NCBI GenBank assembly: GCA_913030785.1
Contig: CAJWER010000003.1
Span: 1 to 34,145, forward strand
Source of the DNA: an uncultured Chloroflexota bacterium
Lineage (GTDB): Bacteria; Chloroflexota; Dehalococcoidia; Lucifugimonadales; CAJWER01
Direction of reading: 5' to 3'
DNA: 34,145 bases
Part shown: piece by piece, positions 28,120-34,145 of the stretch
Layout: every line of letters begins with the position of its first letter
Numbering within the stretch: position 1 is the first letter of the stretch
The notes under the pieces: generated by a model
What the model was told of the DNA's origin: nothing
What the model saw: only the letters and a program-made list of their open reading frames with translations
The model's database searches: none
Translations under genes and position numbers: made by a program

Positions 28120-30981
28120 GTGAAGTATCCATTGAGAACTCTGTCCATCGTAGTGGCTCTGGGGCTGCTGGTGGCTGCCATAGCGGCAGGCCCGGCCTTT
28201 TTAGGGTCACAGCCGGTGGAAGCCGCGACGGTAACCATCGCTGAGAACGACGTCGAGTTCGCCACGGCTGCCGGCGTTGATGTCAGCTCCGCCAAGCCGA
28301 ACTCGACGAGCACGATCTTTATCCGCGACGATGCCCTTGAGACCACCAAGAGTGGTACTGCGGTGTTCAGCGGAATCCCGACGGACTCGAAATTCTTTGA
28401 TATCGCCAACGGTGAGGCGGGTCCTACCGCGGCTAGCTCGACGGCATCAGGTGTGACTGTAGTGCTGACGGCGGCAGATTATGCCTCGTCTTCACCTAGC
28501 ACCACGCCGTTAACGGGCAACCCGACCGCCGTGGTCGGAACGGCCTCTTCTTTCGTCGTCGGCTCTGACGTGGATGCTGGAACGTTCACCGTCCTCGTGG
28601 CCGCTAACGCCACGACCACCGGTACCTTCTCGTATCACGTTCAGGACGTGTGGACCGGTACCGATTCCACTTTGCGGCGGGCCAAGATCATCAGTACCTC
28701 CGACCCCGCGGGCGAGTACGTCACCGTTACTGAGGTAGCGTCGGCCACCGACTCCACGGGCTCTGCAACGTCCAGAGTATTCAGCGGCCTCGTGTTCTTG
28801 TCCTCTGACGCGGCGACCCAGGGCACCAACAGCGACGGCGTGTGGGTACAGGACGCCGACACCCTGACGGTTCAGTACTTGGACTCTGCGGGGACGGTAG
28901 TGGACAGCGACACCGTGACCATTGACGGCGTCAAGCCCACTATCGCGGCAATCGTACCGGCGGACGGGAACGTTACCAACGTGGCGAACCCGACTGTCAC
29001 CTTTGACGTAACTGACTCGGGCTCAGGGATCTCGACGACCAACTTCGCCACCGACCTGACCTTGGCGATCAATGGGACAGCGGTCACGAACATCTCGTTC
29101 CAGGCCATCGCGGACGGGTTCCGAGCCATCTATGCCTCAGGCGTAGCTTGGACGACGGCGACTACTACTCTTGGTGGCTTTGCCATCACGGATAGCACGG
29201 AATTTAGCTTGACGATTACCGCTACAGACCAGGCGGGTAATACCCAGACGGTGGAGACCACCGCTGCTAACATCACGATTGACAAGACCGCTCCGGTCCT
29301 GTCGTCTGCCTCAACAGGCGCGGCGAATACAGCCATCGTGGTGACCTTCAGCGACACCGTGGGACTTGACGCAACGACAGTCGCTGCGTCCGACTTTACA
29401 ATCTCCGGCGGCGTGACCGTATCCGCCGCTGCGGTGGATGCCGACAACAAGAACGTGGTCAATCTGACAGTCTCCGCTATGGCTTCCGATTTGAAGCCAA
29501 CGGTTACAGTGTCGGGCGTTAGCGACACGGCCGGTAACGCGGTCGCTGCCGCCTCTGTGGTGACCGCTACTGACGGTGTGAAGGCTGTCCAGTCTTCAGT
29601 CACCGTTGACAAGAGTCTGGCCATTTTGGCCGATGTGGTGACGACCTCCCTCGGCACTGACGAGAAGATGGCCGTTGACTGGCCCATAATCACGTTCAAC
29701 GGTCCGAGTGGAGCGACCAACAACGGTGCGCTCACTGTGACGTCGCCAACGCCGAACAACTTTGAGGCCGCGGCAACGGTTGTTGCTGGCGATACGACGG
29801 GAACCTTCGGTGTAGCCATCCAGTCCAAGGATCTGGGTAACAACCTGACCGACAACTTGACGGATGTCACGGCGGAGACGCCGAGCATCAGCGGCGCGGT
29901 CCTGACGCTAGCTAACGGCCCTCTAGGTGACACAGACTTCAATGGTACCGTAGGTGCATCCGATGTCACCGTGTTCATGAACGCGACGACTACTGGCGTA
30001 CCATCGATTAGTGCCATTGACGCGAGTGCTAGGACCATCACCCTCGCGAGCCCGGCAACATCGACCGAGGCTTGGACGGTCACGTACAGCTATACGACGG
30101 ACACGGTCGAGATTGATCAGTCCGCCCCTACGGTGACCTTCGACCCCGATGGCACGGCGAGCGTGCAGAACCAGTCGCCGTTTGTCCGCCTCGTCTTTGA
30201 TGAGGATGAGTACCCCGGTGACAGCTACAAGACGGTAACGCTGACAAAGGCCTCGCTTACCGATCCGGCTGGCGTAGTCTCGGACGTCCTAGCCAGCTTC
30301 TCGACCGGTGACAACATTGAGTTCATCTGGTCGGCCACCGACTTGGCCTTGGGCGCCTACACCTTGAAGGTGAGCGCCACGGACACGGCGGGCAACGCCC
30401 TGACCGATGCTACTGGCACGTTTACCATAGCGAAGCGCACGGTTTCGCTGGCTATTAGGCCGGGCTGGAACCTCGTGTCCCTGCCCGATTCGCCGGCAGC
30501 GTCCGCAAACGGCGTGAACGACGTGTTCAGCTCCGATAAGATTGACGTGGTGCTTAGCTACGACGCGATTCGGAACAACTGGTTCAGCGCGACGCGGCAG
30601 TCAGATGGCACCCTGGGCAGGCCTGGTAGCGGCCTCGCTCTCGACACTGTGGCAACCGGCAAGGGCTACTGGGTCCATTCGACGGCGGTTGTATCGCTGA
30701 CGGTAGACGTACCTGGCCTCGCGCCGGGAGCGCCCGCACAGCCGCCGAGCTTTGCACAGACGAGGGGCTGGAACCTGGTGTCCTACACGACATCGGACCT
30801 GAGCGTGACCACGATTGATGTAGACAGCTACTTCACCGGCCTCGATTGGTCGAGGGCCTTTGGTTACGACAACGCGACGAACAAGTTTACGAGCCTGCTG
30901 CCGGATACTGCGGACACGGTGGCTCTGGGCAAGGCATACTGGGTATTCCTGAACAAGGCCGGTACGCTAGTTCCCCCGTAA
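28120..30981 (+). CDS. Large secreted S-layer/adhesin-like protein with Ig-like repeats, one dockerin-like Ca loop and two C-terminal GWNLVS domains
   Basis: Signal peptide LSIVVALGLLVAAIAAGPAFLGSQPVEA; repeated A(D/T)QAGN/TDTAGN Big-type strands; DTDFNGTVGASD; RPGWNLVSLP and TRGWNLVSYT, each followed by GKGYWVHS/GKAYWVFL. GTG start with AAGGGGG RBS. Confidence 0.85.
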   Translation: MKYPLRTLSIVVALGLLVAAIAAGPAFLGSQPVEAATVTIAENDVEFATAAGVDVSSAKPNSTSTIFIRDDALETTKSGTAVFSGIPTDSKFFDIANGEAGPTAASSTASGVTVVLTAADYASSSPSTTPLTGNPTAVVGTASSFVVGSDVDAGTFTVLVAANATTTGTFSYHVQDVWTGTDSTLRRAKIISTSDPAGEYVTVTEVASATDSTGSATSRVFSGLVFLSSDAATQGTNSDGVWVQDADTLTVQYLDSAGTVVDSDTVTIDGVKPTIAAIVPADGNVTNVANPTVTFDVTDSGSGISTTNFATDLTLAINGTAVTNISFQAIADGFRAIYASGVAWTTATTTLGGFAITDSTEFSLTITATDQAGNTQTVETTAANITIDKTAPVLSSASTGAANTAIVVTFSDTVGLDATTVAASDFTISGGVTVSAAAVDADNKNVVNLTVSAMASDLKPTVTVSGVSDTAGNAVAAASVVTATDGVKAVQSSVTVDKSLAILADVVTTSLGTDEKMAVDWPIITFNGPSGATNNGALTVTSPTPNNFEAAATVVAGDTTGTFGVAIQSKDLGNNLTDNLTDVTAETPSISGAVLTLANGPLGDTDFNGTVGASDVTVFMNATTTGVPSISAIDASARTITLASPATSTEAWTVTYSYTTDTVEIDQSAPTVTFDPDGTASVQNQSPFVRLVFDEDEYPGDSYKTVTLTKASLTDPAGVVSDVLASFSTGDNIEFIWSATDLALGAYTLKVSATDTAGNALTDATGTFTIAKRTVSLAIRPGWNLVSLPDSPAASANGVNDVFSSDKIDVVLSYDAIRNNWFSATRQSDGTLGRPGSGLALDTVATGKGYWVHSTAVVSLTVDVPGLAPGAPAQPPSFAQTRGWNLVSYTTSDLSVTTIDVDSYFTGLDWSRAFGYDNATNKFTSLLPDTADTVALGKAYWVFLNKAGTLVPP

Positions 30982-31027: not shown

Positions 31028-31068
31028 AAAGCCTCCCTCCTCCGTCATGGGGAGGGAGGCTTTTTTTT
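31028..31068 (+). terminator. Rho-independent terminator of the S-layer-like gene
   Basis: AAAGCCTCCCTCC-tccgtcatg-GGGAGGGAGGCTTTTTTTT. Confidence 0.92.
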
Positions 31069-31078
31069 GAGGAGCAAG

Positions 31079-33010
31079 ATGAGGGGACAGATTGTGGTGC
31101 GGCCAGTAGTGGCGTTTGTTGTGGCGGCGATTGCCGTCAGTGTTCTCGTTGAGGCCGCCATTGCGCAAGTGCCACCCATCCCTGCGATCTATTCGGGCAC
31201 AGCGACTGTTGGAGGCCAACTGGTTCCCGATGGTCAGTTCATCATTGGAAGGGTCGGAAACTACGAATCCGATCCGGCTTTCGTGCGTAGTGGGGCTTTC
31301 GACCTGGTCGTGGCTCCGCAAGACTCGAGTCTGATCAACCAAAAGTTGTCGTTTTTCCTCAGTGGCCAGGTTGAAGCGGACCGAACAGTTAATTTTGTGC
31401 CAGCCTCGGTAGATTTGGACTTTGATCTGGTATTTTCGAAGCTACCTGACCCGACGCCGACCCCGACCGCGACCCCTACGGCCACGCCGCGGACGGCGCC
31501 AACCATTGTCTATTCTGGTTCGATCATCGTTGCGGGAGGTGACGTACCCCCGGGGGCAACACTGGTGGCGAATTTGGGATCCTACCAATCAACTTCAGCC
31601 TCTATTGAAGGAAACAACTACAGGGCTTTGGTCGTTGACCCGCGGGACGGAGAACTGCTCGGTGAGCTGATTGTCTTTACGCTTAATGGATTCTCGGCTA
31701 CACAGGGTGTGACTTACGAAGAGGGCGGCCTGAGCCGCACTATGGATTTGATATTTATTGGATTGTCAGCGCCGACTCCGACATCCACTCCTTCACCTGT
31801 GGCGACGCCGACCCCAACTGCGACGCCTACACCCGTGCCGACACCTCCGGGAATTTTCATTTCTCCATCTGCAATTTCCGTTAATGAGACTGGTACGGGA
31901 AATGTTGGCACATTCACAGTGGCCCTTAATAGCCAGCCGACATCGGAAGTTGTCCTAGCTTTAACGCCGTCTGATTTAAGTGAGCTAACGACTAGCCCAA
32001 ATACAGTGACGTTCACGCAGAACGACTGGGCAGATGGACGAATTATTACTGTTTCTGGGGTTTTTGATGGCGTTAGTGACGGTAATCAGCTTGCTGAGAT
32101 TGAAATTTCAGTGGCCGAGAGTTCAAGCGCAGATGAATATGACAATGTTGGTTCTTCGGTAGTCGATGTTACTATCTTCGACGTTCCATGCGAATCGTCA
32201 GAAGGGTGCTGTGCTTCGCCATCTGCCCCGACACCTACACCATCGGTAGATTTTATAATTGGAGAGGAGGTTTCGGGCGATCTTTCTGTTGTTGGCGAGA
32301 TAGATATTTGGGAGTTCTACGCTGAATCAGAATCTCCGGTCGATATTTACATGTGGACACCTTTAGATGGAGTGCATGTTGATACTCTAGTTCGTTTGAG
32401 AGACCCGAATGGTCGTGAGGTTGCGTCAAATGACGATCGGAGTAGTGCCGTGGAACAAGCATTTACAGAGGGGATACTCAGCGTAGAGCCGTTTGGTCCG
32501 TATAACTCCGCTATTCTTCGTTTTAATCCTTCAGAAACCGGGGTTTATAGTTTATATGCCGGTTCATATGCGAATAGAGACCAGGGTGATTATCTTTTCA
32601 AGGTAGTTTGCGCACTCCCCCCGCCTCCTATTGAGGTACTTCCCATTTCGGTTGGAGAGGAAGTTTCGGGTGATTTGACCAGAAGCGGTGAAACAGACGA
32701 ATGGGCTTTCGAAGCGATAGCGGGTTCATCCGTAACTATTTATATGTGGACTCCAGTAGGTGGGCGATTCGTAGACACTTATTTGAGATTGAAGAACCCT
32801 GAGGGTATGCAAGTGGTATATAACGACGATTTTAGTTCCGCGGTTAACCGTGCCTTCGAGGATGGGTTATTGGCTGTCGGTCCAACGGGTTCGTTAAACT
32901 CAGCTATTATAGAACACCCTATATTGACGACCGGTATTTATACGATTGTTGCCGATACATATAGGAACGTAGGGATCGGGGATTACCGAATTAAATTGAT
33001 AACGCCGTAG
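31079..33010 (+). CDS. Secreted multidomain surface protein: two N-terminal repeats, TPTP linkers, Calx-beta-like domain, two PPC-like domains
   Basis: Signal peptide; DPTPTPTATPTATPRT and APTPTSTPSPVATPTPTATPTPVPTPP linkers; tandem GEEVSGDL...YMWTP...D.L/YLRL..P.G repeats. RBS GAGGAG at 31069, ATG 31079 favoured over upstream TTG 31067. Confidence 0.85.
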   Translation: MRGQIVVRPVVAFVVAAIAVSVLVEAAIAQVPPIPAIYSGTATVGGQLVPDGQFIIGRVGNYESDPAFVRSGAFDLVVAPQDSSLINQKLSFFLSGQVEADRTVNFVPASVDLDFDLVFSKLPDPTPTPTATPTATPRTAPTIVYSGSIIVAGGDVPPGATLVANLGSYQSTSASIEGNNYRALVVDPRDGELLGELIVFTLNGFSATQGVTYEEGGLSRTMDLIFIGLSAPTPTSTPSPVATPTPTATPTPVPTPPGIFISPSAISVNETGTGNVGTFTVALNSQPTSEVVLALTPSDLSELTTSPNTVTFTQNDWADGRIITVSGVFDGVSDGNQLAEIEISVAESSSADEYDNVGSSVVDVTIFDVPCESSEGCCASPSAPTPTPSVDFIIGEEVSGDLSVVGEIDIWEFYAESESPVDIYMWTPLDGVHVDTLVRLRDPNGREVASNDDRSSAVEQAFTEGILSVEPFGPYNSAILRFNPSETGVYSLYAGSYANRDQGDYLFKVVCALPPPPIEVLPISVGEEVSGDLTRSGETDEWAFEAIAGSSVTIYMWTPVGGRFVDTYLRLKNPEGMQVVYNDDFSSAVNRAFEDGLLAVGPTGSLNSAIIEHPILTTGIYTIVADTYRNVGIGDYRIKLITP

Positions 33011-33118
33011 GAACTAAGTAAAAGTCTGAGCCTTGTTTGGCGCGATTTCTAATGGAACTTCAATCTCTAGTTGGTGTCGATACTAGAGGTAAGAGTATCA
33101 ACGTACGTGATATACTTG

Positions 33119-33160
33119 ATAGGCTTAGTTATATTCCTATTGGCCGGCCTTTAAGCCTAT
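33119..33160 (+). promoter_or_regulatory. Hairpin in the archaellin upstream region
   Basis: ATAGGCTTA...TAAGCCTAT perfect 9-bp inverted repeat; a second one, CTCTAGT...ACTAGAG, lies at 33065-33088. Confidence 0.45.
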
Positions 33161-33243
33161 ATTCTGGTTCAGAAACTTTAGTAATTCTTGTTGTAATTGG
33201 TCCGAGGTTAACGCGGATGCAGATTAAGGAGAGGTTATTTTCG

Positions 33244-33891
33244 ATGGTTGACGGTTGTTTAAAAAAGACATTTTCTCGGTTTTGTAAAGATAGGTCAGGA
33301 ATCACAGGGTTGGAAACAGCCATTGTTTTAATAGCCTTCGTAGTCGTGGCGGCAGTATTTGCGTTTACTGTTCTTACGACTGGACTGTTCACATCAGAAA
33401 AAGCAAAAGAAACTGCTTTAGCTGGCGTAGCCACGACATCCTCGTCCATGACTATTAAAGGCAATATTATCGCTCGAGCAACGGCAGGGGCTAATCCAAC
33501 TGTTGAGGTCGTACGCGTGAAAGTGGCTACTGCAACAGGCGTGGAGCCAGTACTATTTGACCCTGAACAGATTTTGGTTACATATCAGGACGATAATAAC
33601 GTCGAGCAGCTTGCCTATCCTGGAGGGGCAACAGGCGTAATAACCACTGCAGCAACTGTAACAGCGTGTAAGAATAGAACTACACACACTTGGTGTTACG
33701 CTCGTGATGGAGCTGATTTATTGTTAGACCCGGGTGAAGTTAACGAACTGTATATATTCGTGGACGACCTTGCGACAAAGCTAGGGGCGAATAAGCAATT
33801 CACTGTAGAGATAATCCCACAAGATGGAGCAGTACTTAAATTTGAACGGAGGACTCCGCTTAGCTTATCTCCGGTGATGAACTTAAATTAA
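33244..33891 (+). CDS. Archaellin (archaeal-type flagellin, ArlB/FlaB-like) preprotein
   Basis: RBS AAGGAGAGG at 33226-33234; class III signal CKDRSG|ITGLETAIVLIAFVVVAAVFAFTVLTTGLFTSEKAKE; the conserved hydrophobic archaellin N-terminus and SSSMTIKGNIIARA follow-on. Confidence 0.9.
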   Translation: MVDGCLKKTFSRFCKDRSGITGLETAIVLIAFVVVAAVFAFTVLTTGLFTSEKAKETALAGVATTSSSMTIKGNIIARATAGANPTVEVVRVKVATATGVEPVLFDPEQILVTYQDDNNVEQLAYPGGATGVITTAATVTACKNRTTHTWCYARDGADLLLDPGEVNELYIFVDDLATKLGANKQFTVEIIPQDGAVLKFERRTPLSLSPVMNLN

Positions 33892-33941
33892 ATATATTGG
33901 TAAGTCTGCTCGTATATTCAATTAAATAGCTGTTCGGTATT

Positions 33942-33975
33942 ATTTAGCCGGGATAAGAATCTATTCCGGCTAAAT
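33942..33975 (+). terminator. Hairpin between archaellin and downstream ORF (terminator/attenuator-like)
   Basis: ATTTAGCCGGGATA-agaatc-TATTCCGGCTAAAT, 14-bp stem including one G-U, 10 outer bp perfect; followed by tgttt. Confidence 0.6.
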
Positions 33976-34016
33976 TGTTTAGACAGATCAAATGGTAATT
34001 ACAACAGAGGTATGGA

Positions 34017-34145
34017 ATGGTTCGTTCAGATGGAAGGCAAGATGATCGGCTTGAATCGCTTGAGTTAGAGTTCAATCTTCTTAAAACGGAGATTAGACAA
34101 ACCTTAATTGACGTAAAAGAGTTCGTCATGAAAGGAAGGTCAGTA
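34017..34145 (+). CDS. Start of a coiled-coil-like ORF, truncated by the window edge
   Basis: AGAGG RBS then ATG: MVRSDGRQDDRLESLELEFNLLKTEIRQTLIDVKEFVMKGRSV, no stop before the window end; heptad-like pattern. Confidence 0.6.
   Translation, partial: MVRSDGRQDDRLESLELEFNLLKTEIRQTLIDVKEFVMKGRSV

Follow-up and report, generated by a model that had tools for sequence, protein, structure and literature searches.

The window analysed here, the whole of contig G000:C3 (34,145 bp, with nothing readable past it), closes with an archaellin gene, arlB, and the first codons of an accessory gene, very probably the first two genes of an archaellum (arl) locus of known type. Both lie in a 2.3-kb tail that probably does not belong to the high-GC genome making up the other 31.8 kb, and that appears to have been joined to it within a TPTP-coding repeat. 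The features concerned are as follows.

31067..33010, + strand: abnormal fusion ORF of 647 aa (homology break, 27 orthologues, PPC match)
31765..31850, + strand: GC-rich TPTP-coding repeat, the likely join point (repeat family D1, codon score, homology break)
31850..34145 (~2.3 kb), no strand: compositionally foreign tail, GC 44%, GC3 0.33-0.45, low-GC codon usage (GC, GC3, 4-mers, codon score)
33244..33891, + strand: arlB, archaellin preprotein of 215 aa (PF01917, TIGR02537, PDB 9i5h, alignment of Chloroflexota ArlB)
34017..34145 (129 bp), + strand: arl accessory gene (ArlCDE-like coiled coil), first 43 codons, cut by the contig end, reading MVRSDGRQDDRLESLELEFNLLKTEIRQTLIDVKEFVMKGRSV (identity to the post-arlB gene of relatives, HMM)

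An earlier note on this DNA had read the ORF at 33244-33891 as an archaellin gene with a class III signal ending KDRSG|, and had named PF01917 as the profile with which to check it. Both readings are borne out. The product matches PF01917 (Arch_flagellin) over profile positions 1-161 of 162 (E=1.3e-27, 97.5 bits against a cut-off of 29.5 bits), and this is the single PF01917 match in bin G000. Likewise, TIGR02537, the archaellin/type IV pilin N-terminal domain, scores 29.3 bits, above its cut-off of 20 bits. The class III leader, MVDGCLKKTFSRFCKDRSG|ITGLETA, leads into a hydrophobic N-terminal helix, with cleavage predicted from sequence and alignment at KDRSG|ITGLETAIVLIAF. A phmmer search of PDB returned archaellins alone, the top match being 9i5h (2.3e-24, titled 'Flagellin'), whose sequence begins ITALETAIILIAF. 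We infer that 9i5h is the Litorilinea aerophila filament because its residues agree with the ones given in PMC12488501. In the cryo-EM structure reported there, L. aerophila ArlB begins at Ile29, in agreement with the KDRSG|ITGLETA cleavage predicted here, and D158/D162/E165 of the contig protein align to D127/E131/E134 of 9i5h, residues that form part of the C-terminal acidic metal site described for L. aerophila ArlB (PMC12488501). Alignment with seven Chloroflexota ArlB sequences gives 27 invariant columns, and identity to the archaellins in our tree reaches at most 47%. By these sequence criteria the product is a genuine Chloroflexota archaellin of the SAR202 type. Two gene fragments of the PilB-like MshEN-T2SSE type are present in the bin and could be taken to favour a pilin of a bacterial type IV or Tad pilus; that reading has almost nothing left to it and is refuted by the sequence, given the full-length PF01917 match, the return of archaellins alone from PDB and the arl gene order.

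That gene order is read from the last 254 bp of the contig, which stops at that distance after arlB. The gene that begins directly downstream, seen for its N-terminal 43 aa only, encodes a product 37-40% identical to that of the gene that immediately follows arlB in relatives including G027, G021 and G054, and also to one gene within the arl locus of G033; the N-terminus aligns with these four with seven invariant columns. An HMM built from the accessory genes of these relatives alone, with the contig copy left out, recovers 34017-34145 at 2.5e-11 among 28,798 ORFs. The C-terminal part of longer accessory relatives matches Arch_fla_DE (PF04659) weakly (E=0.02 and 0.004, below cut-off), and ArlCDE-like is accordingly the best provisional name. 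The accessory gene occurs in 41 loci of the genome collection, of which 30 have 6 kb or more of sequence after its start, and ArlI lies near it in 29 of these 30 (28 on the same strand, 1 convergent). Because the accessory start stands at the contig end and is linked to ArlI so regularly in relatives, the left edge of an archaellum locus, proposed in the earlier note, is well supported. The order in the SAR202 MAG Io17-Chloro-G2 (L073) is arlB, accessory, arlG, arlF, arlH, arlI, arlJ. In L033/L049 (G021:C6) and L113 the arlB-accessory pair is convergent with arlJ-arlI and the genes do not form one operon.

Alternatively, the archaellin gene could be a scattered arlB copy, as found in SAR202 genomes, and not mark a motor locus. 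Scattered flaB copies are reported in strain JH545 (PMC10444878), several relatives carry arlB without ArlI, and duplicates of the accessory gene exist as well, for example on contigs C8 and C9 of G027. Still, the accessory start directly follows arlB here, and its association with motor loci makes a scattered copy improbable.

By homology to L. aerophila and archaea, a class III peptidase would process the prepilin at G19|I20, and ArlI/ArlJ would insert the cleaved ArlB into a growing helical filament. From relatives (PMC12488501), ATP-driven ArlI with ArlH would rotate the filament for swimming, ArlF/ArlG would act as stator, and the accessory protein would probably take the ArlCDE role of linking the motor to chemotaxis. 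The earlier note had placed the motor genes just beyond 34145, which cannot be shown since the contig ends there, nor did the bin supply them. No ArlI was found in G000 by NF058587, no T2SSF match corresponding to ArlJ and no ArlH-like KaiC match. The KaiC-family matches in the bin were set aside as ArlH candidates, being weak or lying in frames that, at 459-516 aa, exceed ArlH in size, and the T2SSE matches on C262 and C266 were rejected as ArlI because of their MshEN domain, a feature of PilB/GspE. The motor genes may merely be unbinned, the bin being fragmented (422 contigs) and 93.5% complete, with 8% contamination. Neither PF01917 nor ArlI was found in G001, the sole same-family genome compared (97% complete, two contigs), and PF01917 is present in 11 of 59 relatives. 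One A24-type prepilin peptidase-like gene of 413 aa lies at 3006-4247 of L157 (G000:C6), with neighbours that by eye are hisA-like and MutL-like ORFs; it is a candidate for ArlB processing only if C6 is native to the organism.

The genes upstream on the contig are bacterial, as the earlier note had described: gyrA, ffh, pyrG, rho and a caa3-type oxidase set were confirmed, with rho 70-77% identical to same-order relatives, while the recA that it also listed was not found among the upstream ORFs (window 1-30981) scanned with Pfam. An Rfam scan of the window gave no match. This neighbourhood is not a safe context for arlB, as the final 2.3 kb depart from it in GC, in codon usage and in 4-mer content and are joined within the abnormal fusion ORF; housekeeping genes on the contig are a weak basis for assigning arlB to a host. 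GC falls from ~59% in the rest of the contig to 44% from about 31.85 kb, and GC3 is 0.37 in arlB as compared with 0.70-0.79 (about 0.73) in the host part. Codon usage in the tail fits low-GC SAR202 better than the host, with a margin of 0.30-0.46 nats per codon (score -0.30 to -0.46), while all host genes score in the opposite direction, towards the host (+0.27 to +0.46 per codon). The 4-mer correlation of the tail to the bin is 0.22 against a mean of 0.67, below every sampled bin window. Furthermore, the GC of arlB minus that of its own flank is -0.14, the most extreme value among the 49 arlB loci whose upstream sequence sufficed for the comparison (mean -0.011, SD 0.029 in the 48 others). 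Low GC alone is no proof of a foreign tail, since 2 of the 20 other bin contigs sampled contain low-GC islands as well. Islands of this kind, at about 2601-6300 of L221 (G000:C20) and about 201-3100 of L227 (G000:C80), have 44-47% GC in a bin of 60% GC and could be mobile DNA or further joins.

The likely position of the join lies inside the fusion ORF. Residues 1-262 of this ORF are a conserved SAR202 surface protein with a TPTP linker, and residues 262-647 are an unrelated PPC-domain protein, the domain match in this 386-residue C-half being below cut-off (3.5e-4). Among the order-wide matches listed for the N-half, homology reaches no further than residue 320 and mostly ends near 260. All 27 recovered orthologues have 337-439 aa, in which the TPTP linker is followed by a short TM tail, and none continues like the contig ORF. 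A search for homologues of the C-half beside arlB in 80 loci found none. The N-half is taken as native because its position after the gene for a 953-aa surface protein is kept in G027 and, with intervening genes, in G001. The homology break and the composition shift both fall within the 31765-31850 repeat, and the cumulative codon score drops steadily from about 31,750. As the N-half score is itself intermediate (0.02), the change does not occur in a single abrupt step. The reading frame is preserved across the join, and a join through two TPTP linkers would itself keep frame, as a natural fusion would.

In the ArlB tree the contig protein falls inside a 25-row clade (support 95) made up entirely of Chloroflexota or same-order genomes, on an end branch of 0.9, and is sister to a marine SAR202 clade (SH-aLRT 85, long branch). 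Locus GC is 34-50% in this sister clade and has a median of 57% in the other loci, and such kinship fits a foreign tail. Two archaellins that nest within Chloroflexota come from records titled Bacteroidetes B25T1L10 (L092) and Acidobacteria B3T1L10 (L100), a mismatch that likely reflects binning contamination. No donor was identified, as the DNA of the tail has no close relative among 250 genomes of the order; the search returned essentially the signal-helix region only, at best 76-79% over about 100 bases. A scan of viral contigs gave one short match only, and therefore no viral link.

The likeliest source of the tail is a SAR202 relative of lower GC, with misassembly a more probable account of the join than recent transfer. 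We lean towards a chimeric contig because the composition of the tail is foreign, the fusion is absent from all 27 orthologues, the kin of ArlB are low in GC, ArlH/I/J were not found in the bin and G001 lacks an archaellin. A correct contig, in which a SAR202 genome recently acquired a low-GC arl locus beside its surface-protein genes and natural recombination made the in-frame TPTP fusion, is a possible but less probable account. The frame kept across the join, the other low-GC islands of the bin, the intermediate codon usage of the N-half and the scattering of archaellum genes over the order's genomes all speak for it, whereas the orthologues, the missing motor genes and the same-family genome just named, together with a break that sits inside a repeat, speak against it. 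That the contig is correct and, specifically, a high-GC SAR202 lineage recently gained the locus from another SAR202 lineage is doubtful; if true, it would be a case of secondary spread of the archaellum from bacterium to bacterium. The contig context of arlB is thus unsafe, and while the join at about 31.8 kb is unchecked by reads this MAG should be scored neither as archaellated nor as an extra transfer event.

In bacterial archaella a motility machine has passed between domains, a striking case but one already published; the earlier note rightly said that archaellum gene clusters were known from some Chloroflexota. Archaellum clusters were described in four cultivated SAR202 strains in 2023 (PMC10444878), and Sivabalasarma and colleagues (2025) found the machinery in 243 Chloroflexota genomes, obtained a 2.7 A filament structure and demonstrated swimming (PMC12488501). 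The contig archaellin is an ordinary case of that kind, to which it adds one divergent member. The likeness to the bacterial Chloroflexota archaellum of L. aerophila extends to homology over the whole mature ArlB, the cleavage site and the acidic metal-site residues, although that organism belongs to another Chloroflexota class and the present contig ends before any motor gene. Ca. Lucifugimonas marina JH545 is, like the organism here, a member of SAR202 (class Dehalococcoidia) with an archaellin gene; in its published cluster six flaB stand in tandem ahead of flaGFHIJ (PMC10444878), whereas the contig has one arlB and an accessory start. The contig ArlB and the ArlB copy of JH1073 sit in different tree branches. 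The locus of Io17-Chloro-G2 shares the succession of arlB and accessory gene, but is complete, while the contig locus is cut after 43 accessory codons.

Two further observations concern proteins encoded upstream of the probable join. The 953-aa protein (28120-30981) is secreted, with weak Ig-like matches and GWNLVS motifs, and is possibly a surface-layer or adhesin protein; its gene lies near that of the TPTP-linker protein in G027 and G001. The stretch 31067-31849, together with orthologues L179-L207, represents a SAR202-wide surface-protein family of about 340-440 aa with two YSG-type domains and a TPTP-rich linker. The domain part of this family has no Pfam family match, and its C-terminal tail, often of the form SGG(x)C..TM..RR, resembles a sorting signal.
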